A stretch of 41,045 nt of DNA, taken from IMG/VR virus record IMGVR_UViG_3300035198_000017, positions 1 to 41,045 of that record. One strand, 5' to 3'. Below are positions 725-41,045 of the stretch, in pieces (the first letter of the stretch is position 1; each line of letters starts with the position of its first letter). The stretch comes from a virus. A model generated the notes under the pieces. The model had not been told where the DNA came from. It made no database searches and saw nothing but the letters and a program-made list of their open reading frames with translations. A program made the translations under genes and the position numbers.

Positions 725-769
725 GGATTGGATGAGAACGGAACGTAGTGGACGGGGATGGAAAGGAAT
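725..769 (+). repeat. GGANN pentamer array 1 (9 units)
   Basis: Nine units in exact 5-base phase: GGATT, GGATG, AGAAC, GGAAC, GTAGT, GGACG, GGGAT, GGAAA, GGAAT. Degenerate units differ by substitution, not by indel. It sits between a TATA box and the ribosome site of the serine protease gene. A short ORF (ATG 732 to TAA 776) runs through it, but such arrays are open in all frames by construction. Confidence 0.9.
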
Positions 770-787
770 ATATTAAAAGGTGAAAAA

Positions 788-1660
788 ATGAGTGAATATA
801 TAAAAGATATTGAAATGAAACATGCTCAAATGCTGTGGACGACCATCCGAATTCGAGCTGAAAAGGCGTGGGGTAGTGGAACAGTAGTTTATAGTGGACA
901 AGATAGTAAAGGAGAATACCATAATTACGTATTAACCTGTGAACACGTTATTCATGATAACATTCATGTAGAAACAAAATTTGACCCTAGAGTAGGTTAT
1001 GATATTAAGAAAGAAACACGTATACCATGTGAAGTAGAATTTTTCTATTATGACAAGTATAGTATATGTCAAGGAGTAAGTGGTAGTACTAAAGCAGATA
1101 TAGTAGCATATAATACAGATGAAGATATAGCATTATTAGAATTAAGACGTAACGCTAAAATAGATTATGTAGCAAAACTGTTCCCTAAAGACCATTATAG
1201 TGAAATACACGTGTTTGACCCAGTATATGCAGTAGGAGCAGCATTAGGACATGAACCAGTAGCTACAAGTGGAATAATAAACTTTATGAATGAACTAATA
1301 GATGAAGGAGTAGAATATTGGATGAGTAATGCACCTATAATATTTGGAAATAGTGGAGGAGCAATATTTAGGTATAGTTCAGAAAGACAAGAATATGAAT
1401 TTCTAGGTATGCCAGCGCGTGTAGCAGTAAGTATAGCTGGATTTATGCCAGACCCAATAACACATTTAGCCTGGTTTGTACCTATAAACAGAATATATAA
1501 ACTAATAGATGACAACTTCTACCAATTCATATATGATAGTAATTGGACATTTGAGAAGTGTAATGAAGAAAGAGAAAAATGGAAGAAGGAAAGAGAAAAA
1601 CTGTTACTGGCTAAGTATGGAGGAACTCCAGAGAAAGAAGAAAAGAAAAAGTATAGGTGA
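788..1660 (+). CDS. Trypsin-like (S1/HtrA-type) serine protease
   Basis: A 290-residue protein with the chymotrypsin-fold triad. GSG at 29-31 precedes the His box T-C-E-H-V-I (His53), Asp113 lies in D-E-D-I-A-L-L-E-L, and the nucleophile Ser189 lies in F-G-N-S-G-G-A. No signal peptide or membrane helix is visible, so it should act in the cytoplasm. The C-terminal 40 residues are a charged helix. ATG 788 is chosen over ATG 758 because AAAGGTGA lies just upstream of 788 and 758 falls inside the GGANN array. Possible roles are capsid maturation, cleavage of host proteins or stress protection; context does not decide. The expected prohead protease is a separate gene at 20988. Confidence 0.88.
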   Translation: MSEYIKDIEMKHAQMLWTTIRIRAEKAWGSGTVVYSGQDSKGEYHNYVLTCEHVIHDNIHVETKFDPRVGYDIKKETRIPCEVEFFYYDKYSICQGVSGSTKADIVAYNTDEDIALLELRRNAKIDYVAKLFPKDHYSEIHVFDPVYAVGAALGHEPVATSGIINFMNELIDEGVEYWMSNAPIIFGNSGGAIFRYSSERQEYEFLGMPARVAVSIAGFMPDPITHLAWFVPINRIYKLIDDNFYQFIYDSNWTFEKCNEEREKWKKEREKLLLAKYGGTPEKEEKKKYR

Positions 1661-1665
1661 ATATT

Positions 1666-1923
1666 ATGGGATTAGAGAATGGTAAATGTGACAGTTGTGA
1701 AAAACAAACTAACTTTTTATTCCCTATAGCTGTAACAGTTGAATTACCAACTGGAGGATTAACTATGACTATACGTTATTACTGTATAGATTGTTATGAA
1801 ACATTAGTTGATGTTGCACATGATGAATTAGAGAAAGATGAAGAAGAGCAAGAAGAGGAAGAGGAAGAAGAAGAACAAGAGGAAGATACGTTATTTTATA
1901 CTATAGAATGGTCTATGACATAA
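1666..1923 (+). CDS. Zinc-ribbon protein with acidic tail
   Basis: About 85 residues. An N-terminal CDSC pair and a CIDC pair make a zinc ribbon around a beta hairpin; a run of Glu/Asp residues follows (nucleotides 1831-1890) and then a short hydrophobic end. The start is ATG 1666, five bases after AGGTGA, rather than the upstream in-frame GTG 1657. The acidic tail could mimic nucleic acid, but this is speculation. Confidence 0.7.
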   Translation: MGLENGKCDSCEKQTNFLFPIAVTVELPTGGLTMTIRYYCIDCYETLVDVAHDELEKDEEEQEEEEEEEEQEEDTLFYTIEWSMT

Positions 1924-3627
1924 ATGAATATTTTACTATGTATAACAACATATAACTCTAAGAAATTTTTGGGACGATTATTTTATTATTTAGAACAATT
2001 AAACCCTAAACCCAGTTTTACATTATTTGTTAGTACTGACTATTATCCATTTAACGACTTGTTGTATATTCATAGAAACTATAAAGTTACACCGTACAAA
2101 ATAATTAATATACCATTCTGTAAAGATGCAGTAAAGAAATTAGAATATCCATATAATACAATAGCAATAATTAGACAGGCAGGGCTAGAGTACGCTAGAA
2201 AACATAATTATGATTACATATGGTTTAATGATGATGACAACTACCCTTTAACATCTAACATGTTTGATTTATTAACAGAACATCCAGATAACTATTTAGT
2301 AGGAGCACCATATTGTGTAGATGAAAATACGGAAGCATTAACTTTAAATGGATGGAAAAAAGGAACAGAATTAACTTCAAATGATTTAATACTGATTTAT
2401 AAAAATGGTAAATTACAATATGAAAAAATAGAGAATTTATACAGGACACACTATAACGGTCGTATGATAAAAATTATAGCAAAAGATTCAATAGATATGT
2501 TATTAACTCCTAATCATAATTTTTATTATTTACATAGGATAAAAGGACATAAACAGAAAGACAGATTTGAATGGAGAATTAAAAAAGCAGAAAACATTAC
2601 TAAATCAGATAGAATAAGAATTGGGGCAAAAAACAAATATGGAAAGACGAGAATAAACAAATATTTAGCTGAATTATGCGGATGGGTATTAACTGATGGA
2701 TATATATATTCTACAAATTATCGTAACGGTATAAGCATATACCAAACATTAGAACCTCATCCAGAAAAAGTAAAAAGAATAAAGTTTCTATTAGATAATT
2801 TAAATATTAAATACATAATTCATAAAAGACAAAGATTTCATGGTGATAATTTAAGAACAGAATTTGAATTTTATTTATCAGCTAAAGACGATAATGTTAA
2901 ATGGATACGCAATATATTTCCAAATAAAAAACCTAATTATAATATATTAAATGAATGGGATAGAACTTCATTAAAAGCATTATTGAAAGGAATAATTTTA
3001 GGTGATGGTTGGAAAGATAATGAGCAATATAGAATTGTTGGAAAGACAGAATATGTAGATTTTTATCAATCATTAACAATACGACTAGGGTACAGTAGCG
3101 TTGGACAAAAAAATAATACGATTTGTAGTATAAATAAAAAACAGATAAAAGGTTTACAAAGAGCAACAATATGGAATATCTATTATAATGGGGTAGTATG
3201 GTGTCCTCAAGTATCAAGTGGGTTATGGTTAGCAAGAAGAAATGGTAAAATATTTATTACTGGTAATAGCAGGGTCTATCCTGATGGAATATTTTTAGCA
3301 TGTAAATGGGGAACATTAGAAAGAGGAAAATACTTATTAAAGAAAATACCTAATTACCCATTAGACTTTCCAGTAATGATTAGTGGAGGAGCCATGTTAA
3401 TACCTAAACAAATAATACAAGATACAAGACTAAACTTTTATCCTATACATATAGAATATTCAAGTAGTGAAGATTACGGATACTGTTTAGCTGCAAGAAA
3501 ACTTGGTTATTTATGTTTATTAGATTGTAGAGTTAAAATGCATCATGAATATATAAAAACAATACAGGACATTAAACCTTGGACTGTAAACCCTAAAACA
3601 GGTAATTACTTTGAGTTCAACTATTAA
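1924..3627 (+). CDS. Glycosyltransferase (GT-A) interrupted by an intein
   Basis: The 567-residue precursor consists of N-extein (1-130), intein (131-448) and C-extein (449-567). The spliced protein would be about 249 residues. The N-extein opens with I-L-L-C-I-T-T-Y-N, a family-2-type GT-A start, and has a metal-binding motif W-F-N-D-D-D-N near residue 105; the C-extein has S-G-G-A and a late His pair (M-H-H-E). It would transfer a sugar from a nucleotide sugar to an unknown acceptor, perhaps host surface glycans or virion proteins. The following methyltransferase overlaps it by 17 bases, suggesting joint action on a modification. The ATG directly follows the upstream stop. Confidence 0.85.
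   Translation: MNILLCITTYNSKKFLGRLFYYLEQLNPKPSFTLFVSTDYYPFNDLLYIHRNYKVTPYKIINIPFCKDAVKKLEYPYNTIAIIRQAGLEYARKHNYDYIWFNDDDNYPLTSNMFDLLTEHPDNYLVGAPYCVDENTEALTLNGWKKGTELTSNDLILIYKNGKLQYEKIENLYRTHYNGRMIKIIAKDSIDMLLTPNHNFYYLHRIKGHKQKDRFEWRIKKAENITKSDRIRIGAKNKYGKTRINKYLAELCGWVLTDGYIYSTNYRNGISIYQTLEPHPEKVKRIKFLLDNLNIKYIIHKRQRFHGDNLRTEFEFYLSAKDDNVKWIRNIFPNKKPNYNILNEWDRTSLKALLKGIILGDGWKDNEQYRIVGKTEYVDFYQSLTIRLGYSSVGQKNNTICSINKKQIKGLQRATIWNIYYNGVVWCPQVSSGLWLARRNGKIFITGNSRVYPDGIFLACKWGTLERGKYLLKKIPNYPLDFPVMISGGAMLIPKQIIQDTRLNFYPIHIEYSSSEDYGYCLAARKLGYLCLLDCRVKMHHEYIKTIQDIKPWTVNPKTGNYFEFNY
2314..3267 (+). mobile_element. Intein with LAGLIDADG homing endonuclease
   Basis: 318 residues in frame in the glycosyltransferase. 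Residue 1 is Cys131 of the precursor (C-V-D-E-N-T-E-A-L). Splicing block B is L-L-T-P-N-H-N-F. Two dodecapeptide motifs, L-C-G-W-V-L-T-D-G-Y and L-K-G-I-I-L-G-D-G-W, mark a LAGLIDADG endonuclease. Block F/G is W-C-P-Q-V-S-S-G-L-W, then I-F-I-T-G-N followed by Ser +1. The penultimate residue is Gly instead of the usual His, a known but less common variant. Both endonuclease Asp residues are present, so it may still be active. Confidence 0.92.
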
Positions 3628-4126
3628 AATATTACGTGATTCAGATGGAGGACACGTAGATGATGTATTTAATGTAGTTGCTAAACTGTTACCTGATAAA
3701 CCACAAAGAATAGTTGATTTAGGATGTGGAGCATTCAGGTGGATAAAGAAAGATTATGACATTACAAGAGTAGATATAAAAAACTTTAATGATAACATAG
3801 TTTACGATTTAAATAAAGACTTTCCATTTAAAGATAAAGAATTTGATGGAGTAGTAGCAATAGAGTTAATAGAACATTTAAAGAATCCATTTAAGTTTCT
3901 TAAAGAATGTTTTAGAATAAGTAAAGACTGGGTAATAATAACTACACCAAACATTAATAAAGTATGGGTTAGAACAACATGGTTTGGAGAGAATGCAAGT
4001 AAATATGGACATATAATACCATGCACTATTGATACATTTAAGTTAGCATGTGAAGAAAACAATTGGAAAATAGACATGGTAAGATATAGTGAAGTAAGCA
4101 TAATAGTTAAAATGACACCAATATAA
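3611..4126 (+). CDS. Class I SAM-dependent methyltransferase
   Basis: 171 residues. Motif I V-D-L-G-C-G near residue 40, followed by a strand ending V-D-I-K (acidic ribose contact), D-L-N-K-D-F-P-F, and E-L-I-E-H-L as in the Methyltransf_11/UbiE type. Substrate is unknown; its overlap with the glycosyltransferase suggests sugar or lipid-linked glycan methylation. It starts at TTG 3611 inside the upstream gene; no strong ribosome site is visible, which suits translational coupling. Confidence 0.8.
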   Translation: MSSTIKILRDSDGGHVDDVFNVVAKLLPDKPQRIVDLGCGAFRWIKKDYDITRVDIKNFNDNIVYDLNKDFPFKDKEFDGVVAIELIEHLKNPFKFLKECFRISKDWVIITTPNINKVWVRTTWFGENASKYGHIIPCTIDTFKLACEENNWKIDMVRYSEVSIIVKMTPI

Positions 4127-4137
4127 TTTTAGTATAA

Positions 4138-4186
4138 TTTAGTACTAAACTATTTATATACGAAAAACACATTATATATTATAGAG
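4138..4186 (+). promoter_or_regulatory. Late promoter with operator palindrome, capsid gene
   Basis: The perfect 12-bp palindrome TTTAGTACTAAA (4138-4149) lies 3 bases upstream of the TATA box TTTATATA (4153-4160). A second block ATTATATATTATAGAG (4171-4186) follows. The structural-operon promoter at 20440 has the same three parts at almost the same spacing (30 versus 31 bases from AGTACT to the second block). Expected start site is near 4183. Confidence 0.75.
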
Positions 4187-4250
4187 CAACTATGAAATCC
4201 TATCTATATTTAAGGAATAGGTATTATAATTTAATTAAAGGTGATTATGA

Positions 4251-5510
4251 ATGAATAGTAAAAAGAAGCTCCTAGAAGCAAAACTAGAAGATAAAGAAGT
4301 TAAAGACTTTCTAAAGACTGCAGAGGGACATCCATTCATACAAGCATGGATAAAGAACTATGAAAAGAAACTTGCTGAAGGCGAAATAGAAATGGGTGCT
4401 TTGAGAGGTCAAACAGTAGGAGATACGACTGGAGCAGGAGTGCAAACACAAGTTGCTGCTACACTTGAAATCTTTAATGCTGTAGTTAGAGGTTTTACAC
4501 GATACATGGATGATTCATGGATAAAGAGATACGCTACAGACGCTGTAGTGTTTAAAATACCTAAAGTTGAATATATGGAAGCAGTAGCTGAAATTAATGC
4601 TGGACAACTTCCACATACAGAGAAGAAAATAGATTACGTGACAATTGACTTAAGTACACCTGAATCAGAAAAAGGTGGAAAAGTCACTTGGACACGTGCT
4701 CTAATGGAAGATGTTACATTTGATGTACAAGCAGAAATGATGGAAGGACTAGGACATGCTATTGCAGTTAAAATGCAAAATGACCTTATAGGTAAAGTTA
4801 AAGACGTAGCGAACAATTATGCATGGCTTATGCCTTATGGAGCTAAAAGAAGTATTAGTTCACCTATAACATGGACTGAATTTCTAAGTACAGTTGGGGA
4901 TGTAGATAGTGGATTTGACAGATATGTCGTTACAATAGGCAGCACATCAATAAGTAACTCATATCTGAAAACTAAAGTTTCAACAAGTAATGATACTAAC
5001 GCATCAAATGTAGTAGGATACTTATTCCAAGTAAACTCAAGTACAGAAATTGTAATATTACATGGAGGTTCACATGCAGCAGTACCAGCAAGCGGAACAC
5101 TATATATTAATCCAGGAGCAAGTGCAATAGCTGTTACAGTTAGTGCTTCAACAAGTACTGGTAAAGTTACTTATGGACCAGCAGATATAGTGTTAGTTAG
5201 TCCAGACCTATATTGGGAACTACTTAACATCATACAATTAACTAACGTGTTGTATGAGGGAAGTACAGACCCAGTTAGACAAGGAGTTATACGATTAGCA
5301 TTAGGAACAACAATTATAAAGCATGGTTTACTTCCATCAAGGACAATGGTAGCATTAAATAGTGACAAGTGTATAGGAATGGTACTACGTAGAGCATTAA
5401 AGATAGAACCAGTTTTGTTCCCTGTGTGGAACGAATATGGATTCATAGGCACAATACGATACGGAGCAAGTATACTGTTTGAAGGAGCTATGCAGTGGGC
5501 AGGAAGCTAA
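4251..5510 (+). CDS. Major capsid protein (HK97 fold, putative)
   Basis: 419 residues. A short charged helical N-terminus leads into a Gly/Thr-rich linker, a segment with aromatic-rich E-loop-like character (residues 75-115), a long amphipathic helix (E-D-V-T-F-D-V-Q-A-E-M) and a C-terminal beta region ending R-Y-G-A-S-I-L-F-E-G-A, the pattern of HK97-type phage capsid proteins. Residues near 225-295 are Ser/Thr/Gly-rich, possibly a surface insertion. It has its own strong promoter and AAAGGTGAT ribosome site and is followed by a T7 tract, so it is a single-gene late unit. It is about 18 kb from the portal gene on this linear map. Family assignment rests on pattern and context. Confidence 0.75.
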   Translation: MNSKKKLLEAKLEDKEVKDFLKTAEGHPFIQAWIKNYEKKLAEGEIEMGALRGQTVGDTTGAGVQTQVAATLEIFNAVVRGFTRYMDDSWIKRYATDAVVFKIPKVEYMEAVAEINAGQLPHTEKKIDYVTIDLSTPESEKGGKVTWTRALMEDVTFDVQAEMMEGLGHAIAVKMQNDLIGKVKDVANNYAWLMPYGAKRSISSPITWTEFLSTVGDVDSGFDRYVVTIGSTSISNSYLKTKVSTSNDTNASNVVGYLFQVNSSTEIVILHGGSHAAVPASGTLYINPGASAIAVTVSASTSTGKVTYGPADIVLVSPDLYWELLNIIQLTNVLYEGSTDPVRQGVIRLALGTTIIKHGLLPSRTMVALNSDKCIGMVLRRALKIEPVLFPVWNEYGFIGTIRYGASILFEGAMQWAGS

Positions 5511-5540
5511 ACAATTAATTAGCTTCTATAATATACCCTA

Positions 5541-5547
5541 TTTTTTT
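5541..5547 (+). terminator. T-tract terminator after capsid gene
   Basis: Seven consecutive T residues about 30 bases after the capsid stop, without a strong hairpin, fit the U-rich intrinsic terminators of archaea. Further T runs follow up to 5577. Confidence 0.5.
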
Positions 5548-5577
5548 ATGTATTAAATTTTTATGTAGGTAATTTTT

Positions 5578-6264
5578 ATGTATGTAATACCAGAAAATAA
5601 AACAGTATATTTACGTGTAAGTGGACTAGCAACTTATTTATTCTGTCCCAAAAGAAGTAAAATCCAGTTATTTAATAACCCAGTAATATATAGTAAAGAG
5701 AAAGGTGCAGTAGTTAAAGGAATAAAGTTACATCAACAATATGAATATATGATGTATAATGTAGGATTTGATAGGACATTAGTAAAGTATAAGTTAGGAT
5801 GGACACCATTAAAAGTATTTGAGAAACAAGTACCGAATACTAATATAATAATTAGAGGTAAACCAGATGATTTAAGAACAATAATAAATAAGAAAGATAA
5901 CAAAAAATATACTGTATTATTAGAGCTTAAAACTACTGGTCGTAAAATGATTAGGAGAGAAATATATTGTGCTATGAAACAACTACAATTGTATATGTGG
6001 TTACTTAAAGAAAAATTAGAGGAAATAGGTTTTCCATTATGGAAGTATGGTATAGTAGAAATATACAGTCAAAAAACAGGTGAATTGTTAAAAAGATATA
6101 GTGTACAATATGATGATGATATTGAAACATGGATTAAGCATGTAGCGAAAACTTTTACTGGAGAAGAACCTTTAAATATTCCAGAAGATATTAGATACTG
6201 TAAGAAATGTCCACAAGCAATACGTAATGTATGTGAATGGTATAGGTTGATGAAAAATGGATAA
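5578..6264 (+). CDS. Cas4-like RecB-family nuclease with Fe-S cysteines
   Basis: 228 residues. An N-terminal Cys23 (L-F-C-P-K-R) and three C-terminal cysteines (C-K-K-C-P...N-V-C, near residue 210) match the 4Fe-4S frame of Cas4/AddB-type nucleases. The PD-(D/E)xK core is present: His52, Asp97/98 (R-G-K-P-D-D), Glu116-x-Lys118 (L-E-L-K) and a Q-L-x-x-Y-M-W helix. It would be a DNA exonuclease making or trimming ends. No other cas gene or repeat array is present, so it is a viral Cas4 homologue rather than part of a CRISPR locus. It lies directly before the terminase, so a packaging or recombination role is plausible. Confidence 0.88.
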   Translation: MYVIPENKTVYLRVSGLATYLFCPKRSKIQLFNNPVIYSKEKGAVVKGIKLHQQYEYMMYNVGFDRTLVKYKLGWTPLKVFEKQVPNTNIIIRGKPDDLRTIINKKDNKKYTVLLELKTTGRKMIRREIYCAMKQLQLYMWLLKEKLEEIGFPLWKYGIVEIYSQKTGELLKRYSVQYDDDIETWIKHVAKTFTGEEPLNIPEDIRYCKKCPQAIRNVCEWYRLMKNG

Positions 6265-6418
6265 AGTAGTGTTTGTATGTAAATATAGTCCAATATGTAA
6301 TTGGAAATGTGAAAGGTGTCCATACTTACTTAAAGAATTAAAAATAGTAGAATTGCAGAAAAGTGAAGAATTATATAAAGATTTCAAAAATATGAATATA
6401 ACATGTGATTGTACATGA
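6257..6418 (+). CDS. Cys-rich microprotein
   Basis: 53 residues with Cys8, Cys14, Cys18, Cys21, Cys50 and Cys52, including C-N-W-K-C-E-R-C, a likely metal-binding knuckle. It overlaps the nuclease gene upstream by 8 bases and the terminase ATG downstream by 4 (ATGA), so the three are translationally coupled. Function unknown; a small terminase or nuclease partner is a guess. Confidence 0.7.
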   Translation: MDKVVFVCKYSPICNWKCERCPYLLKELKIVELQKSEELYKDFKNMNITCDCT

Positions 6419-7647
6419 GTAGATGGGTTAATATAGAAGATTACTTTGAATACTTGACAGGATTAAAACCTACTAAAGACCAAACTGAATTACTGAAAAC
6501 TTTAACAGATATGAATAATAAGAAAATAATAATTAGTGCTGGTCGTCAATCAGGAAAAACTTTAACTTGTGCTGTAGCTGTATTATGGTATGTATTTGAA
6601 TATGAAAAACCAATAAAAGTATTATTAATTAGTGCTCAAGAAAACATATTGTATTTTCATATAAGAGAAATATTTAAGAGACATCCAGAATTTACAGATG
6701 AAATAGTAGCACAAGGAGTATATAGTTTAGTTCCCTTAAGAGGATTTGAATCTAAAAAAGGAAGTATAGTTTATGTTAAAGGAGCTACAGATAAACAGAT
6801 TAGAGGTTTACCAGCTGATGTAGTGTTTATAGATGAAGCGTGTGAATGTAAAGATGATGTTATATTAACAGCATTAGGTAATTTAAGTGGTCCAATAAGT
6901 AAGTTTATACTGTTAAGTACACCACATAAAGACAACTTGTTTACTAGATGGGCAACAGATGAAAATAGTGGATTTAAAGTACACATGTGGAGTGCAGAGA
7001 GTTTACCCTGGCATGATAAGACAATATTAGAAACTAAAAAGAAAGAAATGAGTAGTGAAAAGTATGCTGTAGAAGTTTTAGGTAGACCTCCAACTATACA
7101 GGAAAGAGGATTCTTTAGTAGGACACATATTAACAAGTGTGTAACTGAAAGTCCAATAGTTAGAGAAGGAGGCACAATAGAGATAGGTATAGATTTTGGA
7201 GAAATAGAAAGTAGTACAATATTAACTGTTATAGAACGTGTAGGAAGAATAAAAAGTAAAATATTAAATATTAAAAAGTGGAAGTTACCTCCAGAATTAG
7301 TTAGTGATGAAATCTTAGTAGAAATACGCAAGTGGAATCCAACTATAGTTAAAGCAGATAATAAACCTCCAGAATACATGAATATATTAAAGACTAAAAC
7401 TAGAAAAATAGTGTTTATAGACTGCACATTTCATAAAGAGTTAATGTTAGGACAATTACAGAAACTAATAAGGGAACATAATATATTGATACCTCAACAT
7501 GAAGTAGAATTAATAAAACAGCTAACAACTTATAAGAGAGGAATGAAAGTTGGAGATGATTATGTGGATTCTCTAGCGTTAGCTATTTATGACTATGAAT
7601 ATAAGCCTAGTTATGGAAGAATATATTTAGGAAAGAATAAACTTTAA
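6415..7647 (+). CDS. terL: Terminase large subunit
   Basis: 410 residues from ATG 6415 (the ATGA overlap decides this over the TTG at 6409). ATPase domain: Walker A G-R-Q-S-G-K-T at 43-49, Walker B D-V-V-F-I-D-E at 135-141, coupling motif L-L-S-T-P at 167-170. RNase-H-like nuclease domain: first acidic residue Asp260 in I-G-I-D-F-G, last Asp in Y-V-D-S-L-A-L-A near 385. It pumps and cuts DNA at the portal. No small terminase was recognised nearby. A TATA-type promoter overlaps its stop. Confidence 0.95.
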   Translation: MSRWVNIEDYFEYLTGLKPTKDQTELLKTLTDMNNKKIIISAGRQSGKTLTCAVAVLWYVFEYEKPIKVLLISAQENILYFHIREIFKRHPEFTDEIVAQGVYSLVPLRGFESKKGSIVYVKGATDKQIRGLPADVVFIDEACECKDDVILTALGNLSGPISKFILLSTPHKDNLFTRWATDENSGFKVHMWSAESLPWHDKTILETKKKEMSSEKYAVEVLGRPPTIQERGFFSRTHINKCVTESPIVREGGTIEIGIDFGEIESSTILTVIERVGRIKSKILNIKKWKLPPELVSDEILVEIRKWNPTIVKADNKPPEYMNILKTKTRKIVFIDCTFHKELMLGQLQKLIREHNILIPQHEVELIKQLTTYKRGMKVGDDYVDSLALAIYDYEYKPSYGRIYLGKNKL

Positions 7648-7650
7648 ATG
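7636..7650 (+). promoter_or_regulatory. Promoter AATAAACTTTAAATG overlapping terL stop
   Basis: TATA box TTTAAATG at 7643-7650 includes the terminase stop TAA. The first GGA of the next array is at 7680, 37 bases downstream, the same distance as at 688/725. A second copy of the promoter motif follows the array at 7754. Confidence 0.55.
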
Positions 7651-7669
7651 TTAGTTATTATAAATATAA

Positions 7670-7749
7670 GAGATAGAGCGGACTGGAGCGGAGTTGATAG
7701 GAGAGGATAGTAGGGGAATGGAAAGGACTGGAAAGGAGTTTATTGGAAC
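7670..7749 (+). repeat. GGANN pentamer array 2 (about 16 units)
   Basis: From 7670 the sequence divides without an indel into GAGAT, AGAGC, GGACT, GGAGC, GGAGT, TGATA, GGAGA, GGATA, GTAGG, GGAAT, GGAAA, GGACT, GGAAA, GGAGT, TTATT, GGAAC. It is flanked on both sides by TATA-type promoters, so it could also be a short independent RNA. No convincing coding sequence. Confidence 0.9.
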
Positions 7750-7753
7750 AAAA

Positions 7754-7780
7754 AATAAAGTTTAAATACTGGTTTAACTA
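7754..7780 (+). promoter_or_regulatory. Promoter AATAAAGTTTAAATA plus GGTTTAAC motif
   Basis: The promoter motif is 7754-7768 (TATA 7761-7768). Immediately after it, GGTTTAAC at 7771-7778 repeats the motif found several times in the 35.4-kb non-coding region. Expected start site is about 7790, so the mRNA for 7801 would have almost no leader. Confidence 0.6.
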
Positions 7781-7800
7781 TCTATGTAAAGTGATTTAAT

Positions 7801-8103
7801 ATGATTACAGCAAAGAAAATAAAACAGAAAACTAAAGATTGGAAACTTTATTTGTGGGGTCCACTATTCTTATTATACTATTGGTTTTTATGGCAATTAG
7901 ATTTATGTGGAGCATATTACGTATGGAAATATGGTAATAATGATTATATAGATGGATGGATATTTGAATATGTTTTAGGACATGAATTTTTTAGAGTTAC
8001 AAGTTTCTATAATGCTTGTATGATAGTATTGTTACTGTTTCCAATAATGACATTTATATTGTTTAATAGTATGTATAAAGTAGTGAGGGTACAGAAAAAA
8101 TGA
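7801..8103 (+). CDS. Membrane protein, two or three helices
   Basis: 100 residues. A basic N-terminus leads into a hydrophobic stretch (about residues 17-38, Trp/Tyr/Leu-rich); a second helix spans about 72-92, with a short polar loop between them containing a D-Y-I-D-G-W segment. GTGATT lies just upstream. It opens a cluster of membrane proteins around a papain-like protease and overlaps the next gene by 4 bases. Role unknown; egress or envelope disruption is possible from context. Confidence 0.65.
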   Translation: MITAKKIKQKTKDWKLYLWGPLFLLYYWFLWQLDLCGAYYVWKYGNNDYIDGWIFEYVLGHEFFRVTSFYNACMIVLLLFPIMTFILFNSMYKVVRVQKK

Positions 8104-8405
8104 ACATACATGAAATCTTAGATAAACACTTTACTTTCTTAAGACAATTCAATAATGTTTTAAATATTAATGTAGGAGAAGAAATAACTAAAGGTAAAAG
8201 GACAGGTAGACAAGCAATAATAGTTTATGTTAAAAAGAAGTTACCATTAGAAAAACTAAAAACTAATGAGATATTACCTGATTATGTAGATGATGTACCA
8301 ATAGATGTTATAGAATGGACAGCTGATTATGAATTGGGAAATACTACGCCTTCTTATTATAATCCTAAAATACAAAAGAAAATAGCTAGTGGTGTAAAGA
8401 AATGA
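8100..8405 (+). CDS. Protease-associated N-terminal domain protein
   Basis: 101 residues. It contains V-G-E-E-I-T-K-G-K-R-T-G followed by I-I-V-Y-V-K-K-K-L-P, then I-L-P-D-Y-V-D-D-V-P-I-D-V-I-E. This resembles a domain I know from the N-termini of bacterial trypsin-like proteases (G-x-x-T-G-x-x-x-I-x-V-F-V-x-x-K, then V-P-T-D-V). Here it is a separate gene that overlaps the papain-like protease by 4 bases. It may act as a pro-domain, chaperone or inhibitor of that protease. Confidence 0.65.
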   Translation: MNIHEILDKHFTFLRQFNNVLNINVGEEITKGKRTGRQAIIVYVKKKLPLEKLKTNEILPDYVDDVPIDVIEWTADYELGNTTPSYYNPKIQKKIASGVKK

Positions 8406-9142
8406 GTAGTGATTTAAGAGACACTTGTACTCCAGTTAGAAATCAGTTACAATGTGGTAGCTGTACTGCTTTTGGAACTATTGCAGCATGGGAACAAAAT
8501 ATGGTAGTAGAATTTAATCAAATATGGGATTTAAGTGAAAGACACTTGTTTAGTTGTAGTGGAGGAACATGTGAAACTGGAAATACTATGGATAGAGTGT
8601 TTAATACAGCTAAAGATTATGGTGTAGCATTAGAAGATTGTTGTCCTTATGATGGAGTAGACCATTTATGTAGTGACGTATGTAAAGACTGGTATGTTAA
8701 TGGAAAAAAACTTAAACAATGGAGAACAATAAAGAATATAGAAGAAATGAAAACTTTGTTAAAGAGTAAATGTTTAGTTACTACTATGACTGTATACCAA
8801 TCATTTATTAACTATAAAGGAGGAGTATATCATAAATTAAATAATGATTCATTATTAGGATACCATGCAATATGTGTATGCGGATATAATGATACTTTAC
8901 AAGCATGGTTATTAAAGAACAGTTGGGGAACAAACTGGGGACTAAATGGTTATGCATATATAAAATATGGAGAATGTAATATAGATGATGAAATGTATGA
9001 ATTAATACCAGATACAGAACCACCTAATCCTATACCTGTACCTAGTCCATGTAAAGTGGGAAACTTTATAACTAAACTGTTAAATGTATGGTGTTACTTA
9101 TTTAAAAGGAAAGGTAGATTCTATTATATGAATAAGAGGTGA
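8402..9142 (+). CDS. Papain-like (C1A) cysteine protease
   Basis: 246 residues. The papain triad is complete: oxyanion Gln15, nucleophile Cys21 (Q-C-G-S-C-T-A-F), His155 (G-Y-H-A-I-C-V), Asn173 (L-K-N-S-W-G-T-N-W-G). The core starts at residue 1 with no signal peptide or pro-segment, which the upstream gene might supply. After the catalytic domain come a Pro-rich linker (residues 203-215) and a hydrophobic, basic tail that could dock at a membrane. Many extra cysteines suggest disulfides. A proteinaceous host cell wall or S-layer is a plausible substrate; so are virion proteins. ATGA overlap fixes the start. Confidence 0.92.
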   Translation: MSSDLRDTCTPVRNQLQCGSCTAFGTIAAWEQNMVVEFNQIWDLSERHLFSCSGGTCETGNTMDRVFNTAKDYGVALEDCCPYDGVDHLCSDVCKDWYVNGKKLKQWRTIKNIEEMKTLLKSKCLVTTMTVYQSFINYKGGVYHKLNNDSLLGYHAICVCGYNDTLQAWLLKNSWGTNWGLNGYAYIKYGECNIDDEMYELIPDTEPPNPIPVPSPCKVGNFITKLLNVWCYLFKRKGRFYYMNKR

Positions 9143-9146
9143 TGTT

Positions 9147-9356
9147 ATGGGAGAAAAAATAGAAGTGAAAGAAACAGATAAACCATTTATACTTGCTTTA
9201 ATAAGTTCAGGGATAACAATATTAAATATAGTGTTTATAGCTGTGGGAGCATTAACAAACAATAAACAAATGATAGATACATGTGTAGAAACGTTAAAGT
9301 TTACTTTTCCATTAACAACAATGGCATGGACATTTTATTTTGGAAAGAAACAGTAA
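9147..9356 (+). CDS. Two-helix membrane protein, holin-like in form
   Basis: 69 residues: a charged N-terminus, helix about 13-36, short loop with N-N-K, and a second hydrophobic segment about 50-64 ending in G-K-K-Q. Size, topology and position after a protease resemble holins, but no family match is claimed. Ribosome site GAGGTGAT lies a few bases before the ATG. Confidence 0.6.
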   Translation: MGEKIEVKETDKPFILALISSGITILNIVFIAVGALTNNKQMIDTCVETLKFTFPLTTMAWTFYFGKKQ

Positions 9357-9359
9357 AGA

Positions 9360-9494
9360 ATGAATAAAGGAAGAATATATATGGAGTGTTTAGCTAAAAA
9401 TTGTATAAGTAGACAAACAGAGTGTAGTAAAGTGTGTCAATGGTGGACTTACGAATTAACAGTTATGAAGGCTAGAGGTGTAGTGAAACAATGA
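9360..9494 (+). CDS. Cys-containing microprotein
   Basis: 44 residues with four cysteines (residues 10, 15, 22, 26) in C-x4-C-x6-C-x3-C, followed by W-W. It ends with an ATGA overlap into the next gene. The ribosome site is weak. Function unknown. Confidence 0.55.
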   Translation: MNKGRIYMECLAKNCISRQTECSKVCQWWTYELTVMKARGVVKQ

Positions 9495-9586
9495 CTACAG
9501 AACAAATGTTAATACTAGTCTTAATGTTGTTATCTATATTAGGTTATGCTATAATGCTTTATTATAATGAAGTGAATAAGAAATGA
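9491..9586 (+). CDS. Single-helix membrane microprotein
   Basis: 31 residues, nearly all one hydrophobic helix (residues 6-25) with a short charged end. Overlaps of 4 bases on both sides (ATGA) support translation. It could be a membrane-lesion or spanin-like helper in the protease cassette; this is inference from position only. Confidence 0.6.
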   Translation: MTTEQMLILVLMLLSILGYAIMLYYNEVNKK

Positions 9587-9828
9587 AGGAATTATTGTAT
9601 TGTGTATCATGTGGTAAACCTATATGGAGACATAAATTAAAGACAGGTGAAGTGGATACTTTAGGTAGAAATTTATGTCAAATATGTAAGAATAAAGCTA
9701 GAATGGAGTTACAGAGGAATAGAAATAAAATTTATAAAGTAGATGAAAGTATATTTCAAGTAAATGTAAAGAAAGAATTAGATAGGTTAGCTAAAAGACA
9801 AAAACTTAAAGAGGATAAAAAGAAATGA
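9583..9828 (+). CDS. Zinc-ribbon protein with basic helix
   Basis: 81 residues. C-V-S-C-G-K at the N-terminus and C-Q-I-C-K-N near 33 form a ribbon; the rest is a Lys/Arg-rich helix. Likely nucleic-acid binding. Starts by ATGA overlap and ends by ATGA overlap. Confidence 0.65.
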   Translation: MKELLYCVSCGKPIWRHKLKTGEVDTLGRNLCQICKNKARMELQRNRNKIYKVDESIFQVNVKKELDRLAKRQKLKEDKKK

Positions 9829-10028
9829 ATATAAAGAAAGTTTTAGGACAAGTGTTTTTTCTAATAGGTTATGGTATAACGTTACATGCTATAGCTGACG
9901 AGTTATATAAGAAAGGAGGATATGCTGAAATATTAAAACCACAAGGTGAATGGATTGGACTTACACTAGTTATGTTAGGTTTTATATTGTTAATGTGGAA
10001 TTACTGGTTAAGGGATAATAATGATTGA
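9825..10028 (+). CDS. Two-helix membrane protein
   Basis: 67 residues with hydrophobic helices at about 7-24 and 43-62 and a short Lys/Glu loop between. It ends in acidic residues. Coupled to its neighbours by overlaps. Another holin-like candidate in form; no family assigned. Confidence 0.6.
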   Translation: MNIKKVLGQVFFLIGYGITLHAIADELYKKGGYAEILKPQGEWIGLTLVMLGFILLMWNYWLRDNND

Positions 10029-10290
10029 TTTAAACATTAAATATGTTGAACCTAAAATTAAAATAGTTAAAGGTAAAGGTAGACCTATTTGGTGTAGAAT
10101 ATGTTATAGAATGTTACTATCACAGCAACAATACGTGTTTTTTAGAAGCACCAATAGGGATTTACTGGATATGCTTGATATTCCATTTAAGAGACCACAC
10201 GTAACGATTTGCATAGAATGTTGGGGCGTATACAAGAGCAAAATTGAGCAAATACTCGGCAGAGGTTATGAATTATTACAAATAAAATAA
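10021..10290 (+). CDS. Zinc-binding hypothetical protein
   Basis: 89 residues. C-R-I-C near residue 26 and C-I-E-C-W-G near 64 suggest a split zinc site around a polar middle. Overlaps the upstream gene by 8 bases. The gene ends just before a TATA-type promoter (10286). Function unknown. Confidence 0.65.
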   Translation: MIDLNIKYVEPKIKIVKGKGRPIWCRICYRMLLSQQQYVFFRSTNRDLLDMLDIPFKRPHVTICIECWGVYKSKIEQILGRGYELLQIK

Positions 10291-10300
10291 ACTTTATATA
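10286..10300 (+). promoter_or_regulatory. Promoter AATAAACTTTATATA
   Basis: The TATA box at 10293-10300 lies 36 bases before the first unit of array 3 (10329). Expected start site is about 10320, so the 10422 mRNA would have a leader of about 100 bases made mostly of pentamers. Confidence 0.65.
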
Positions 10301-10320
10301 TTTGATTGTTATTAGTAATT

Positions 10321-10416
10321 ATGAAATTGGGATGGAGCGGGCAGGAGTGGACAGGAGCGAATGGGAATGGATTGGATTGGAAAGGAATGGATTGGACAGG
10401 AAAGGAATGGAGGTGA
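10321..10416 (+). CDS. Possible Trp/Gly-rich leader ORF within array 3
   Basis: ATG 10321 opens 31 codons through the pentamer array, with five Trp codons, and stops at the TGA that is part of the ribosome site GGAGGTGA of the next gene. That would allow coupling of leader and gene. Caution: a (GGANN)n array has almost no stops in any frame, and no ribosome site precedes this ATG. Confidence 0.25.
   Translation: MKLGWSGQEWTGANGNGLDWKGMDWTGKEWR
10329..10413 (+). repeat. GGANN pentamer array 3 (17 units)
   Basis: Seventeen uninterrupted 5-base units from GGGAT to GGAGG; only the second and third positions of two units (GGGCA, GAATG) and the first unit depart from GGA. The last unit, GGAGG, is itself the ribosome site (GGAGGTGA) of the gene starting at TTG 10422. 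It is the longest and cleanest of six arrays. Confidence 0.95.
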
Positions 10417-10421
10417 AATAA

Positions 10422-10940
10422 TTGAATAATAAAGATTATAAGAAGTGGACTGTTACGATACGAGGAACTAAACCGTTAATATTTAATAATCCAGCAAGTA
10501 TGAACGTGCCTAAAGGCGGTAAAGAAGTGCCAGTAGAAGCTATGTTATATTTAAATAAAAAGGGACAATTGATACAACCAGCATTACATATTATACAAAT
10601 GATTAAAGATAGTGCTTATAAAATACATAGAAAAAACGGTATGTTAGTTAACGCATATTTAGAAATAGAACCAGAAGAAATAGTGCATAAGAACCAAAAC
10701 TGGGAAATATTTGAAAGTCAAGTGGTTATAGATAAAAGCAGAATTACAAAGAAAAGACCCATGTTGAAGGAATGGGAATTAACGTTTACTGTGATTTCAT
10801 TAAATCCTAAAGAATTAACTGGTGAAATAATACGTGAAGCATTAGATTATGCTGGAACGTTTAATGGTTTAGGAGATTGGAGTCCACGTAAAGGTGGAAG
10901 GTACGGTAGGTTTGAAGTTGTACAGTTTGAAGAACAATAA
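10422..10940 (+). CDS. RAMP/Cas7-like fold candidate
   Basis: 172 residues from a TTG with a strong GGAGGTGA site. It opens with a strand W-T-V-T-I-R-G-T-K-P-L-I-F and ends L-G-D-W-S-P-R-K-G-G followed by Y-G-R-F-E-V. The pairing of a T-x-x-x-P-L-I start with a Gly-rich end that reads G-x-G-x-x-R-x-x-x-x-x-G-R-F resembles a widespread viral family I recall only loosely and RAMP-type RNA-binding folds. It lies upstream of the exonuclease and recombinase genes, so nucleic-acid binding is plausible. No CRISPR system is nearby. Confidence 0.6.
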   Translation: MNNKDYKKWTVTIRGTKPLIFNNPASMNVPKGGKEVPVEAMLYLNKKGQLIQPALHIIQMIKDSAYKIHRKNGMLVNAYLEIEPEEIVHKNQNWEIFESQVVIDKSRITKKRPMLKEWELTFTVISLNPKELTGEIIREALDYAGTFNGLGDWSPRKGGRYGRFEVVQFEEQ

Positions 10941-10959
10941 AATTCCATTTTTTATTATA

Positions 10960-11025
10960 ATGAAAGAATGGACTGGACTGGATAGGATAAGAATGGAAAG
11001 GAACGGATTGGTTTTATTTAGGTGA
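10960..11025 (+). CDS. Possible leader ORF within array 4
   Basis: ATG 10960 opens 21 codons (M-K-E-W-T-G-L-D) across the pentamer array and stops at a TGA inside the AGGTGAT ribosome site of the exonuclease gene, as the leader ORF at 10321 does. It lacks an own ribosome site. The same caution applies: pentamer arrays are open by construction. Confidence 0.25.
   Translation: MKEWTGLDRIRMERNGLVLFR
10965..11009 (+). repeat. GGANN pentamer array 4 (9 units)
   Basis: Units AGAAT, GGACT, GGACT, GGATA, GGATA, AGAAT, GGAAA, GGAAC, GGATT in perfect phase. A T6 tract (10948-10953) and TTATTATA precede it, acting as a terminator or weak TATA box. It lies in the leader of the exonuclease gene. Confidence 0.9.
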
Positions 11026-11029
11026 TTAG

Positions 11030-11719
11030 ATGAAGTGGACTAAACAAGAAGATGATGTAATTCGTAAATTATACCCTATTATGGGAACTAAAGTAAAGTT
11101 ACATCTAGAGAATAGAACTATAGATAGTATTGAACATAGAGCAAGACGTTTAGGAGTAAAGTTTATTCCAACAGGGGAAGGACCAGCAGGATTTTTAGAT
11201 ATTGAAAGTAGTGGGTTACAAGGAGACTTTAATTATATGTATAGTTGGGCTATAAAAACAGCTAATAAAAATGAAGTGTGTCATTCTATAATTAGTAGTG
11301 ATGAAATGAGGAATGGAGTGTTAGATAAACGAGTAGTGCAAGAGTTAGTTAATGCTTTACAGAATTATAAGAGAATATACACTTATTATGGAACAAGATT
11401 TGATATACCTTTTGCTAGAGCAAGAGCATTATATCATAAAATAGAATTTATACCTTACGGAGTTATTGAACATAGAGATTTATACTATTTAGCTAGAAGA
11501 GTGTTAAGGATACATAGAAATAGATTAGAAAGTGTAGCTGATTTATTAGGTATTAAAGGTAAAACACATCTTAATCCTAGAATTTGGGTAATGGCTAATT
11601 GCGGAAATGAACAAGCATTACAATATATATTGAAACATAATATTAAAGATGTTGAAGTGCTTGAACAAGTGTATAAAAAATTACAACCTTACGAAGCAAA
11701 AACAAGACGTTATATTTAA
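11030..11719 (+). CDS. DnaQ-like 3'-5' exonuclease with N-terminal Myb/SANT-type HTH
   Basis: 229 residues. Residues 3-43 (W-T-K-Q-E-D-D ... R-A-R-R-L-G) are a SANT/Myb-like DNA-binding helix bundle as in phage HTH proteins. Exo I F-L-D-I-E-S (Asp57, Glu59), Exo II Y-G-T-R-F-D-I-P-F (Asp125) and Exo III H-N-I-K-D-V (Asp207) give the DEDD metal site of RNase-H-like exonucleases. No polymerase domain. It likely trims single-stranded or recombination ends, together with RadA and the ERCC4 nuclease downstream. AGGTGAT lies before the ATG. Confidence 0.85.
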   Translation: MKWTKQEDDVIRKLYPIMGTKVKLHLENRTIDSIEHRARRLGVKFIPTGEGPAGFLDIESSGLQGDFNYMYSWAIKTANKNEVCHSIISSDEMRNGVLDKRVVQELVNALQNYKRIYTYYGTRFDIPFARARALYHKIEFIPYGVIEHRDLYYLARRVLRIHRNRLESVADLLGIKGKTHLNPRIWVMANCGNEQALQYILKHNIKDVEVLEQVYKKLQPYEAKTRRYI

Positions 11720-11720
11720 G

Positions 11721-11785
11721 GGAGTGGAAAGGATGGGAGTGGAGTGGACTGTAACGGATTGGACAGGAGTGGAATGGAATGGTAA
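11721..11785 (+). repeat. GGANN pentamer array 5 (13 units)
   Basis: Thirteen phased units from GGAGT to GGTAA with one weak unit (GTAAC), starting 2 bases after the exonuclease stop. TTATATTTA at 11710-11718 could be a TATA box. The ATG of the next gene (11779) lies inside the last GGAAT unit, so the array supplies the ribosome site. Confidence 0.92.
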
Positions 11786-11982
11786 ATAATAAAGAAAAAC
11801 CTAAAAAGATACGTGTGAAAGGATGGGTAGAAGATAATGAACCAATATCTAATATTCCTACAGTATGTCCTAAATGTGGAAGTAAACTTAAAATTGTTAA
11901 TGCTTTACAGACATCTGCAGGAATAATATTTGTGTTTTGTCCTAACAGCAAGTGTCGGTATGCAATCGAATATGAGGAATAA
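11779..11982 (+). CDS. Zinc-ribbon protein
   Basis: 67 residues. A basic N-terminus precedes C-P-K-C-G-S-K-L near residue 35 and C-P-N-S-K-C near 55. It is a standard two-knuckle ribbon. The start falls in array 5, with GGAGT/GGAAT units as the only ribosome site. Function unknown. Confidence 0.65.
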   Translation: MVNNKEKPKKIRVKGWVEDNEPISNIPTVCPKCGSKLKIVNALQTSAGIIFVFCPNSKCRYAIEYEE

Positions 11983-11989
11983 AATGGAA

Positions 11990-12004
11990 AATAAAGTTTA
12001 TATT
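11990..12004 (+). promoter_or_regulatory. Promoter AATAAAGTTTATATT
   Basis: A copy of the repeated promoter motif just after the stop at 11982. TATA starts at 11997, and the phased array starts at 12031, 34 bases downstream, as at the other array promoters. Confidence 0.65.
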
Positions 12005-12030
12005 TTAGTAATGATTATTAAATGGATAAA

Positions 12031-12075
12031 GGATGGGAAGGGATAGGAGCGTAGAGGAGAGGATTGGAGAGGATT
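12031..12075 (+). repeat. GGANN pentamer array 6 (9 units)
   Basis: Units GGATG, GGAAG, GGATA, GGAGC, GTAGA, GGAGA, GGATT, GGAGA, GGATT in perfect phase; a further GGATA at 12024 is out of phase by two. It lies in the leader of the 12102 gene, which also has a separate ribosome site (GAGGAATAATC). Confidence 0.9.
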
Positions 12076-12101
12076 AATCTAAAAGAATTTGAGGAATAAT
12101 C

Positions 12102-12296
12102 ATGAGTAGTTTGAAAGAAAAAGCAAAAACTTTAAAGAGATTGCCCTGTTTCGGAGACGCTAATATGAGTGATGCTTGTCCACAATGTCCAGACTATGAG
12201 GAATGCATTGAAGAAACTTTAAAGCGACCAGCAAAACCTGCGTTTGGAAAACGAGTAGAAAGGATTTTAATGAAAATGATGGAGGAATCAAAATGA
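12102..12296 (+). CDS. Cys-motif small protein
   Basis: 64 residues with C16 and a C-P-Q-C-P-D-Y-E-E-C cluster near residues 26-35, flanked by basic helices. Metal binding is likely. Overlaps the next gene (ATGA). Base composition from here to about 12680 looks slightly richer in G+C than the neighbours. Confidence 0.6.
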   Translation: MSSLKEKAKTLKRLPCFGDANMSDACPQCPDYEECIEETLKRPAKPAFGKRVERILMKMMEESK

Positions 12297-13415: not shown

Positions 13416-13600
13416 GTGATAAAAAGAAATGTAAGCATTTTGAAGAATGTACCCAATTAGTTTATTATGGAGAATACACACATAGATGTGTTAATGGTTA
13501 CCCTTTTATACAAGAACAATGTTGGGAAAACTGGAGAATATGGGAAAGGTCTAATGTAAAAACGATTCCTAAAGAATGGAAAGAAAAAGAAAAGGATTAA
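13412..13600 (+). CDS. Cys-rich hypothetical protein
   Basis: 62 residues with Cys7, Cys13, Cys26 and Cys37 and many aromatic residues (W-E-N-W-R-I-W). A metal site of C-x5-C-x12-C-x10-C type is likely. It directly precedes radA. Confidence 0.6.
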   Translation: MSDKKKCKHFEECTQLVYYGEYTHRCVNGYPFIQEQCWENWRIWERSNVKTIPKEWKEKEKD

Positions 13601-13603
13601 TAA

Positions 13604-14680
13604 ATGAGTGAACCTAAACAAATTAAGTTAGATAAAGAATTATTAAAGAAAGAAAAACATATAGATAGTAAAACTCCTGAAGAAATGAATAGTGAAGTTA
13701 CTAATGAACAAGAGTATGATATTACACAGTTAAGTGGAGTCGGACCAAAAACTGCTGAAAAACTTAGAGAGAAAGGATACTTAACTCTTATTGATATTGC
13801 TACTACTAGAGCAGATGAACTTAGTGCTGTAATGGGTATTGGTTATGCACAGGCTAAAGTGTGGATTGATGATGCTTTAGATAAAGTTAGTGCTAAAATG
13901 AAGTTGCAGAATGCTACTGATTACACTAAAGAAAAGAATGATAAAACTATAATATTTACTAGTGGAAGTGAAAACTTAAACAAATTACTTGATGGAGGAT
14001 TTAAAACTGGAACAATATATGGTACTGTAGGTAGATTTGCTACTGGTAAAACACAGATAGGTTTTGAGTTAGTTGTTGATTGTTTAAGTAAAGGTTATAG
14101 TAGTGTATTTATAGAAACAGAACCAGACACGTTTCATTTAGAACGTTTACAGGAAATAGCTAATGGTAAAGGAATAAAGAATATAGACTGGAGTAAACTT
14201 TACGTATGTCCAGCAGACCAAATTCCCACAGCGAAGGCTCAATATTTACAGTATAAAATTATACAGAAAGCATTAGAAAGAGGAGAAAACATTAAACTTA
14301 TAGTAGTGGACAGTTTTAATGCTAAGTTTCGTGCTGGATGGAGTAGAACTGAAATGTTGCCTCTTAGAACACGTGAGTTTGGTGAGCATTTTACTTTAAT
14401 AGAATATTTAACAGCAAAGTATAATTTATGTTGGTATTTAACATTTCAAGCTATAGCACCTCCTAGACCAGACCAAGGATTACAAGCTAAAGTAAAGTTT
14501 GGGCAAGAATTTTATCCAATAGGTGGAGATTATGTATTGCATAGTGTTAATATCTGGTTAGGACTTAATCAGGTAAAAACTGAATTATGGACTGCTGTTT
14601 TGTTTGATTCTAGTTATATTGATAGAGGAACAGTTGAATTTGTATTATGTAAAAATGGTCTTATGGATAGTGTTAAATAA
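13604..14680 (+). CDS. radA: RadA-family recombinase
   Basis: 358 residues, close to cellular archaeal RadA. A helix-hairpin-helix domain occupies about 41-95 (L-S-G-V-G-P-K-T-A-E-K-L). The RecA core has Walker A G-R-F-A-T-G-K-T at 143-150 (cellular enzymes usually read G-E-F-G-S-G-K-T), Walker B K-L-I-V-V-D-S at 231-237, and an L2-like loop after F-Q-A-I-A-P-P. It forms filaments on single-stranded DNA and pairs homologous strands. The next gene, an ERCC4 nuclease, starts one base after its stop, so the two probably act together in recombination-dependent replication or repair. Confidence 0.93.
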   Translation: MSEPKQIKLDKELLKKEKHIDSKTPEEMNSEVTNEQEYDITQLSGVGPKTAEKLREKGYLTLIDIATTRADELSAVMGIGYAQAKVWIDDALDKVSAKMKLQNATDYTKEKNDKTIIFTSGSENLNKLLDGGFKTGTIYGTVGRFATGKTQIGFELVVDCLSKGYSSVFIETEPDTFHLERLQEIANGKGIKNIDWSKLYVCPADQIPTAKAQYLQYKIIQKALERGENIKLIVVDSFNAKFRAGWSRTEMLPLRTREFGEHFTLIEYLTAKYNLCWYLTFQAIAPPRPDQGLQAKVKFGQEFYPIGGDYVLHSVNIWLGLNQVKTELWTAVLFDSSYIDRGTVEFVLCKNGLMDSVK

Positions 14681-40465: not shown

Positions 40466-40573
40466 ATGGAAGAAAAAAATAAACCTTATATATGGGAAGA
40501 TAATCGAATAATATTACCTAAAGAGGAGAAAAGAGAAGGCTTAATTACAAAAATATGGAAGTGGATAAAATGA
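40466..40573 (+). CDS. Microprotein
   Basis: 35 residues, charged, with a Trp-rich amphipathic end (I-W-K-W-I-K). AGGTGAAAGG lies upstream; it overlaps the next ATG (ATGA). Unknown. Confidence 0.5.
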   Translation: MEEKNKPYIWEDNRIILPKEEKREGLITKIWKWIK

Positions 40574-40749
40574 GAAACAATATAGAGAAACTGAAAGAAT
40601 TAACTATTAAAATAGAAGCATATTTAAACTTAAGAAAGTTTTGTGATGAAAATAGTACTAAATGTTTGAATAAAAACAGAAATTGTTATGAGTGTAACAT
40701 TCAACAACTTATAGATGAATTAGAACAACAAATATTTTTAGAGGCATAA
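40570..40749 (+). CDS. Cys-containing helical protein
   Basis: 59 residues from ATG 40570 (ATGA overlap, preferred over ATG 40555). Four cysteines near the middle (C-D-E-N, K-C-L, C-Y-E-C) between two helices suggest a metal or disulfide hairpin. Unknown. Confidence 0.55.
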   Translation: MRNNIEKLKELTIKIEAYLNLRKFCDENSTKCLNKNRNCYECNIQQLIDELEQQIFLEA

Positions 40750-40751
40750 AT

Positions 40752-40973
40752 ATGAGAGCAATTATAGAAAAGAATAAATATGGAACATTCCTTATACTAA
40801 TTCCAACAACTGATAAACAGAAAGACCAATTAGGCAAGTTATGGCAGCAATTACCAGATATAACATTTGAGAAAAGAGGATGTATAATTGTTGAAAGAGA
40901 TAGACCAACTAAAAGCTCATTTGTTATAAAAATAAACAATATAATGGAAAGAGGAAAAAGAAATGAAACATAA
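40752..40973 (+). CDS. Small hypothetical protein, last gene before circle closure
   Basis: 73 residues, alpha/beta: I-I-E-K-N-K-Y-G-T-F-L-I-L and a C-terminal strand G-C-I-I-V-E-R-D. Its end overlaps the start of the zinc-ribbon gene (ATG 40963 = ATG 102). The inverted artefact at 1-64 derives from its 5' part. Confidence 0.6.
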   Translation: MRAIIEKNKYGTFLILIPTTDKQKDQLGKLWQQLPDITFEKRGCIIVERDRPTKSSFVIKINNIMERGKRNET

Positions 40974-41045
40974 AGTACAATGTGCTATATGTGGAAAGAA
41001 AGGTGTAGTGGAAATAGACAACTGGAATAAAATGATATATAGTGA
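40919..41045. repeat. Terminal direct repeat, copy 2
   Basis: Identical to 58-184. It contains the first 28 codons of the gene that starts at 102 (here ATG 40963), cut by the contig end. Removing one copy closes the circle at about 40,861 bp. Confidence 0.85.

Follow-up and report, generated by a model that had tools for sequence, protein, structure and literature searches.

What are phased arrays of a GGANN pentamer doing in the genome of a virus? The question is raised by IMG/VR virus record IMGVR_UViG_3300035198_000017, a 41-kb record (41,045 nucleotides, referred to in full as the window) that we take to be a tailed virus of an archaeon since a terminase is encoded in it along with a RadA-like recombinase and a Hef/Xpf-like nuclease, both archaeal in type. 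Six such arrays lie on its plus strand and an earlier note on the same DNA had placed them in mRNA leaders, as possible sites for an oligomeric RNA-binding protein, with TRAP and CsrA as the known parallels. The evidence argues for a different function. Very probably the arrays encode guide RNAs (vrRNAs) of a system of the VIPR (Viral Interference Programmable Repeat) type that is aimed at genes of close rivals, those with a known target being situated beside the virus's own altered copy of the gene.

The arrays and the protein that adjoins them

Arrays 1 (725-769, 9 units), 2 (7670-7749, 16 units), 3 (10329-10413, 17 units), 4 (10965-11014, 10 units), 5 (11721-11785, 13 units) and 6 (12031-12075, 9 units) are all on the plus strand, with none on the minus strand, and their positions agree, exactly or to a few bases, with those given in the earlier note for its six phased arrays of 9-17 units. 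Their period-5 log-odds scores, 35.5-82.5, exceed the best value of 24.6 obtained in 40 sequences simulated with a second-order Markov model, which serve as the null. Over the 74 units the consensus G, G and A are found in 68/74, 67/74 and 68/74 cases, respectively, while both N positions are mixed, and the five-base register is kept strictly through degenerate units.

A promoter-like motif, AAASTTTAWA, occurs 15 times in the window and is positioned approximately 30-40 bases upstream of arrays 1, 2, 3 and 6 only (684-693, 7639-7648, 10289-10298 and 11993-12002, respectively, all on the plus strand), where it may drive transcription of the array RNA. The assignment of all six arrays to mRNA leaders goes further than these motifs do. 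Array 5 overlaps the start codon at 11779, and array 2 comes immediately 3' of the terminase gene, with a further promoter-like motif after it (7757), which means that it is not necessarily the leader of the next gene; given its location, the claim of no arrays in the structural operons does not quite hold. An ATG at 758 falls within array 1, with the relatives pointing to 789 as the real start. Neither Rfam families nor tRNAs were found on the window, and by eye no common sequence is seen after the six arrays, only 3'-end units such as GGAAAGGA that recur.

Array 3 is directly upstream, and array 4 directly downstream, of a gene (10422-10940, plus strand) for a 172-residue Vipr-like RAMP (Cas7-like) protein with a glycine-rich stretch near its C terminus, a putative loop, GLGDWSPRKGGRYGRF. 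In tblastn searches it is homologous to a protein that in Escherichia phages SUSP1 and SUSP2 is annotated as hypothetical (E 3e-8), with PHROG family phrog_4652 common to both, and the SUSP1 homologue sits between the GGT-type arrays of that phage. An AlphaFold model (pLDDT 81) predicts one RRM-like core with the Gly-rich motif C-terminal, and the best 50 PDB matches of this model in Foldseek are, in 50/50 cases, chains of CRISPR effector complexes, the closest folds being Cas7/Csm3-type RAMP subunits (E 1e-7, TM-score 0.63 by query length). As modeled, the protein has the RAMP fold of the backbone subunit of class 1 CRISPR effectors (Csm3/Cas7, types III and VII). No CRISPR array was noticed in the window, for which no search with a dedicated tool was made, and the only Cas-like match among the scanned window proteins is a weak one to a Cas4/PD-(D/E)XK nuclease (5578-6264).

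The nature of this protein bears directly on the TRAP/CsrA proposal, in which the arrays are mRNA-leader sites for a host or viral regulator. Triplet sites that are two bases apart and an oligomer on RNA are indeed features of TRAP, GGA is the motif of CsrA, and promoter-like motifs precede four of the arrays. TRAP is an 11-mer ring and CsrA a dimer, however, whereas the product of the viral gene next to the arrays is a RAMP, judged by its predicted structure, and has an unrelated fold. In addition, TRAP and CsrA sites are without target sequence information, and leader binding of this sort does not predict the rival-gene sequence that is present in the NN letters, in codon phase, as described below. 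We regard this proposal as very improbable and conclude that the arrays are probably not TRAP/CsrA leaders. What survives of the idea of an oligomeric RNA-binding protein is its geometry, one subunit per pentamer, which fits a viral RAMP of the kind that polymerizes on guide RNA.

The association of array and protein extends beyond the window. A pattern scan of IMG/VR for GGANN returned mostly simple GGA repeats, and only NN-diverse arrays were retained, several of which are found in a few contigs; an all-against-all protein comparison places a homologue of 10422-10940 beside the arrays in most of the NN-diverse contigs. A profile of the Vipr family, built from 7 of the 8 NN-diverse loci so that only L174 (a Spongiibacteraceae genome) is independent, finds a match in 8/8 of these loci versus 1/230 simple-repeat loci. 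The repeat is of the GGA/NN type in the window, L074, L114, L125, L126 and L174, GGT in SUSP1 and GGC in LittleE. As a positive control the four SUSP1 arrays were recovered, with one of them preceding the Vipr gene and three following it, in agreement with publication (PMC13142463).

There is next to no probability that the arrays are a structural DNA or RNA element, such as two-layer G-quadruplexes or standby sites, or an expanded simple repeat. The GG-rich units do permit two-layer quadruplex motifs in every array, but simple-repeat GGANN loci elsewhere are, with that single exception, without a Vipr gene, and here the NN letters are mixed and informative and the phase survives degenerate units. 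The quadruplex and standby-site models put forward earlier also leave unexplained the match of the NN letters to rival genes in a fixed codon phase.

Further loci of this family were seen in other contigs. L114 carries 19 head-to-tail GGANN arrays (10493-11788), mostly with a GTA(A/G) start and a GGAAC GGCTG end, that adjoin a Vipr homologue and a gene for a SNF2-type helicase and make up a large guide bank. In Mycobacterium phage LittleE (L284) four GGC/NN arrays surround a Vipr homologue annotated as a hypothetical protein (3664-5440). L101 encodes a Vipr homologue (13508-14338, E 4e-37) at a long distance from a simple GGA repeat, and arrays of its own were not found. L126 is a phage with four GGANN arrays whose terminase gene (9313-11862) is apparently split by a long insert, the database matches coming as two pieces that cover approximately half; the insert is probably an intein.

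Probable target genes in related viruses

VIPR was first described in 2026, in the clade of Escherichia phage SUSP1, with experiments in bacterial phage systems (PMC13142463, bioRxiv 2026.04.26.720920). As set out in that preprint, it comprises Vipr RAMP proteins, with a single RRM core, a G-loop and a thumb, and guide RNAs of 9-16 pentamers with the consensus GGY/NN 'or a related consensus'. Each NN pair reads two bases of DNA, after which one base is passed over; this skipped base is aligned to the codon wobble position and the targets are competing phages. The expressed vrRNA and Vipr form a ribonucleoprotein that binds DNA and represses, and an accessory vap gene lies beside vipr (PMC13142463).

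In reading the arrays of the window we have followed the published rule, using the NN letters only, with two bases read and one skipped, and have compared them with three related contigs, L127, L128 and L129. The best eight-unit score (out of 16) within 200 bases around each syntenic site was evaluated against shuffled guides, with a p floor of 0.0066. Array 1 matches the start of a trypsin-like protease gene, with scores for its first 8 units of 15/16 at L128 5233 and L129 1606 and 14/16 at L127 5826. Array 2 matches the 3' end of the terminase gene in all three contigs, 22/32 overall and 15/16 in the best 8-unit stretch, and array 6 a small zinc-ribbon gene at its 3' end, 16/16 at L127 14153 and 14/16 in L128 and L129 (first 8 units). 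For each of these three arrays the target in the relatives is the orthologue of the window gene that adjoins the array. A fourth case is provided by L128, whose only array matches radA at its start, in L127 and L129 as well as in the virus of the window (13646-13668, plus strand, 14/14 over the first 7 units).

With a one-base skip the syntenic scores for arrays 1, 2 and 6 and the L128 array are 15, 15, 16 and 15 of 16, while shuffled guides average 11-12 (p = 0.0066, 0.0066, 0.0066 and 0.013, respectively). Skips of 0, 2 and 3 at these sites give scores of 10-13 only, and concatenating the NN letters contiguously (skip 0), including in reverse and complement, produced no convincing match. Syntenic matches, obtained with one base skipped only, are a property of 4 of the 7 arrays considered (six of the window and that of L128); the chance of at least 4 matches in 7 arrays is ∼1e-6 if each has p ≤0.0132, a value that is indicative since the matches share related contigs. 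All nine of the match frames that were checked are in codon phase 0, and because every one begins at codon position 1 the skipped base is the wobble position. Exact 8-unit patterns of arrays 3 and 5 returned 6 and 19 matches in IMG/VR, respectively, which we treat as chance because their contigs gave no tblastx output against the window (E 1e-5), and no perfect target of array 2 was found in IMG/VR.

The arrays themselves are absent from the close relatives, which the earlier note had said would count against its proposal. Such turnover, yet, is to be expected of guides that differ between rivals.

Probable escape alleles, relics and points of doubt

The virus's own alleles of the three targets match its guides less well than do those of the relatives. 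The start of the protease gene (833-859) has 4 mismatches to array 1 in 8 units, the terminase end (7573-7605) 3 mismatches to array 2 in 8 units and 6 in 11, and the end of the zinc-ribbon gene (11953-11979) 4 mismatches to array 6 in 8 units, all on the plus strand; in the first eight units there are 3-4 mismatches in own alleles versus 0-2 in the relatives. Among the differences from the relatives are synonymous swaps at the first codon position: TTA to CTG abolishes a match with the guide, whereas AGA to CGA happens to restore one. Identity to the relatives is lowest in the ∼60 bases beside the array and recovers past the target, and at codon positions 1 and 2 of radA L128 and L129 are identical at 638/640 positions away from the target and at 13/16 inside it.

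These data also address whether the guides might act in cis on the virus's own adjacent genes, tolerating mismatches, with rivals not targeted at all. That the targets are orthologous to the neighboring genes, and that own alleles still match at 12-13 of 16, would speak for such regulation. Rivals match better in 4/4 cases, however, and the target patch has diverged in the own alleles, the opposite of what self-targeting needs, so that regulation in cis appears quite improbable.

Behind two of the arrays there are relics of the rival-type gene end. The sequence after array 2 (7738-7781, plus strand) matches the terminase 3' end of the relatives and the promoter following it at 42/44 positions, and that after array 6 (12083-12106, plus strand) matches the 3' end of the L127 zinc-ribbon gene at 22/24, while the working gene ahead of each array bears the other allele. 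The simplest reading is the insertion of a unit of new gene end, promoter and array, with the former gene end left behind as a relic, which suggests that the relics are the trace of inserted cassettes of escape allele plus guide.

Since the relics directly follow arrays 2 and 6, the array, the new allele and the old allele are found at one place, and an alternative origin can be drawn from this. An array might have been built beside a displaced original allele that supplied its NN letters, with the linkage to immunity a by-product without selective meaning. We consider this rather unlikely, as no known mechanism copies sequence into an NN code and the divergent patch ends just beyond the target, fitting selection for escape. 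We lean toward the view that GGA-type VIPR moves through a population of archaeal viruses in the form of self-contained cassettes of 'poison plus antidote'. Each would combine a guide against one codon-level stretch of an essential gene with a recoded, resistant version of that stretch, and would be inserted at the end or start of the gene and leave the displaced gene end as a relic. In L128 the array (14363-14427) coincides, in frame, with the beginning of radA (MNGEDGNGTERKGSPKQIK...), and this stretch may be both guide and radA protein code.

Several observations weigh against the arrays being guides of the VIPR type. The GGA repeat is not the GGY of the characterized systems and would come only under 'a related consensus' in the wording of the preprint. 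A conserved 3' tail, invariant and structured in the SUSP1 clade, was not seen by eye after the six arrays, and no clear accessory (vap) gene is seen beside vipr in the window, where the neighbors encode an 89-residue protein and an RNase-H-like protein that both occur in relatives without vipr within the contigs. Across all rival sequence the p values are 0.005-0.045, weaker than at the syntenic sites and marginal for array 2 (0.04) and the L128 array (0.045), so that position, phase and code have to be taken jointly as the basis of the argument; in the same wide search array 1 also reaches 15/16 at skip 2. There are three relative contigs only, with L128 and L129 near-identical in places, and the target matches are thus not fully independent. 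The only perfect guide match in L127-L129 is that of array 6 to L127, and for this array the remainder of the gene is approximately as diverged from L127 as the target itself. Finally, for arrays 3, 4 and 5 a target was found neither at syntenic sites nor in the collections searched.

Genome context and relation to known systems

The relatives join the right end of the window (40478-41045) to its left end (100-300), in L127 at 3224-3514, and there is a resemblance between the last 85 bases of the window and bases 100-184; probably, then, the window is a near-complete genome that is circular or circularly permuted. Named phage relatives identified through the terminase are distant only, mostly cyanophages, and neither a further relative via the RNase-H-like gene nor a provirus or host via capsid alignment in GTDB genomes was found. 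A glycosyltransferase-like gene (1924-3627, 567 residues) contains a LAGLIDADG insert at ∼2313-3266, probably an intein, that is absent from L127 and L128, where the gene encodes 249 residues. A gene for a papain-family (C1) protease (8402-9142, E 5e-37) is followed by small genes.

The system in the window has in common with VIPR a homologous ∼20 kDa Vipr RAMP, pentamer arrays (9-17 units) with conserved GG and hypervariable NN, reading with a one-base skip at the wobble position, targets in competing viruses and its being encoded by a virus. It differs in that the arrays are scattered singly across 11 kb and not clustered around vipr, that the targets are orthologues of the array's neighbor gene in near relatives, with the own escape allele linked to the guide, and that it belongs to an archaeal virus. 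VIPR itself is already known; what appears to be new is a GGA repeat in a virus of archaea and, above all, the linkage of each guide to its own escape allele. The main text of the preprint makes no mention of guides beside own escape alleles, and the words 'self', 'allele' and 'adjacent' are absent from it (PMC13142463).

Unlike type III and VII effectors, whose subunits are the top Foldseek matches and which carry a contiguous CRISPR RNA (crRNA), the window system would pair at two bases in three. A weapon linked to a resistant target allele, with an advantage in mixed infections, is found in the marker exclusion by homing endonucleases of T-even phages and in synthetic cleave-and-rescue drives. 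In contrast to these the window system is RNA-guided, and its likely effect is repression and not cleavage.

We envisage that the viral Vipr would polymerize on array RNA with one subunit per GGANN unit and that the complex would present the NN pairs to double-stranded DNA. With one base skipped after every two, these pairs match the first and second codon positions of genes that belong to closely related competitors, and in a co-infection the expression of such genes would be repressed. Each guide with a known target is placed 3' or 5' of the diverged allele that the virus itself carries, so that weapon and immunity are linked and would be able to spread jointly by recombination.

Here the raw sequence of an archaeal virus, in which the repeat is a different one (GGA), has independently yielded the two-in-three code. 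What is new lies in the genetics: the guide is physically linked to the escape allele, and the escape changes are in the few codons read by the guide, where first-position synonymous swaps can evade a code that does not read the third base. By what means a virus with guides is spared self-harm, how guides originate and move, and whether there are natural RNA-guided drive-like elements are questions that are hereby opened to testing. Should the cassette view be true, the cassettes would amount to a rescue-type drive that is RNA-guided, of natural origin and active between viruses.

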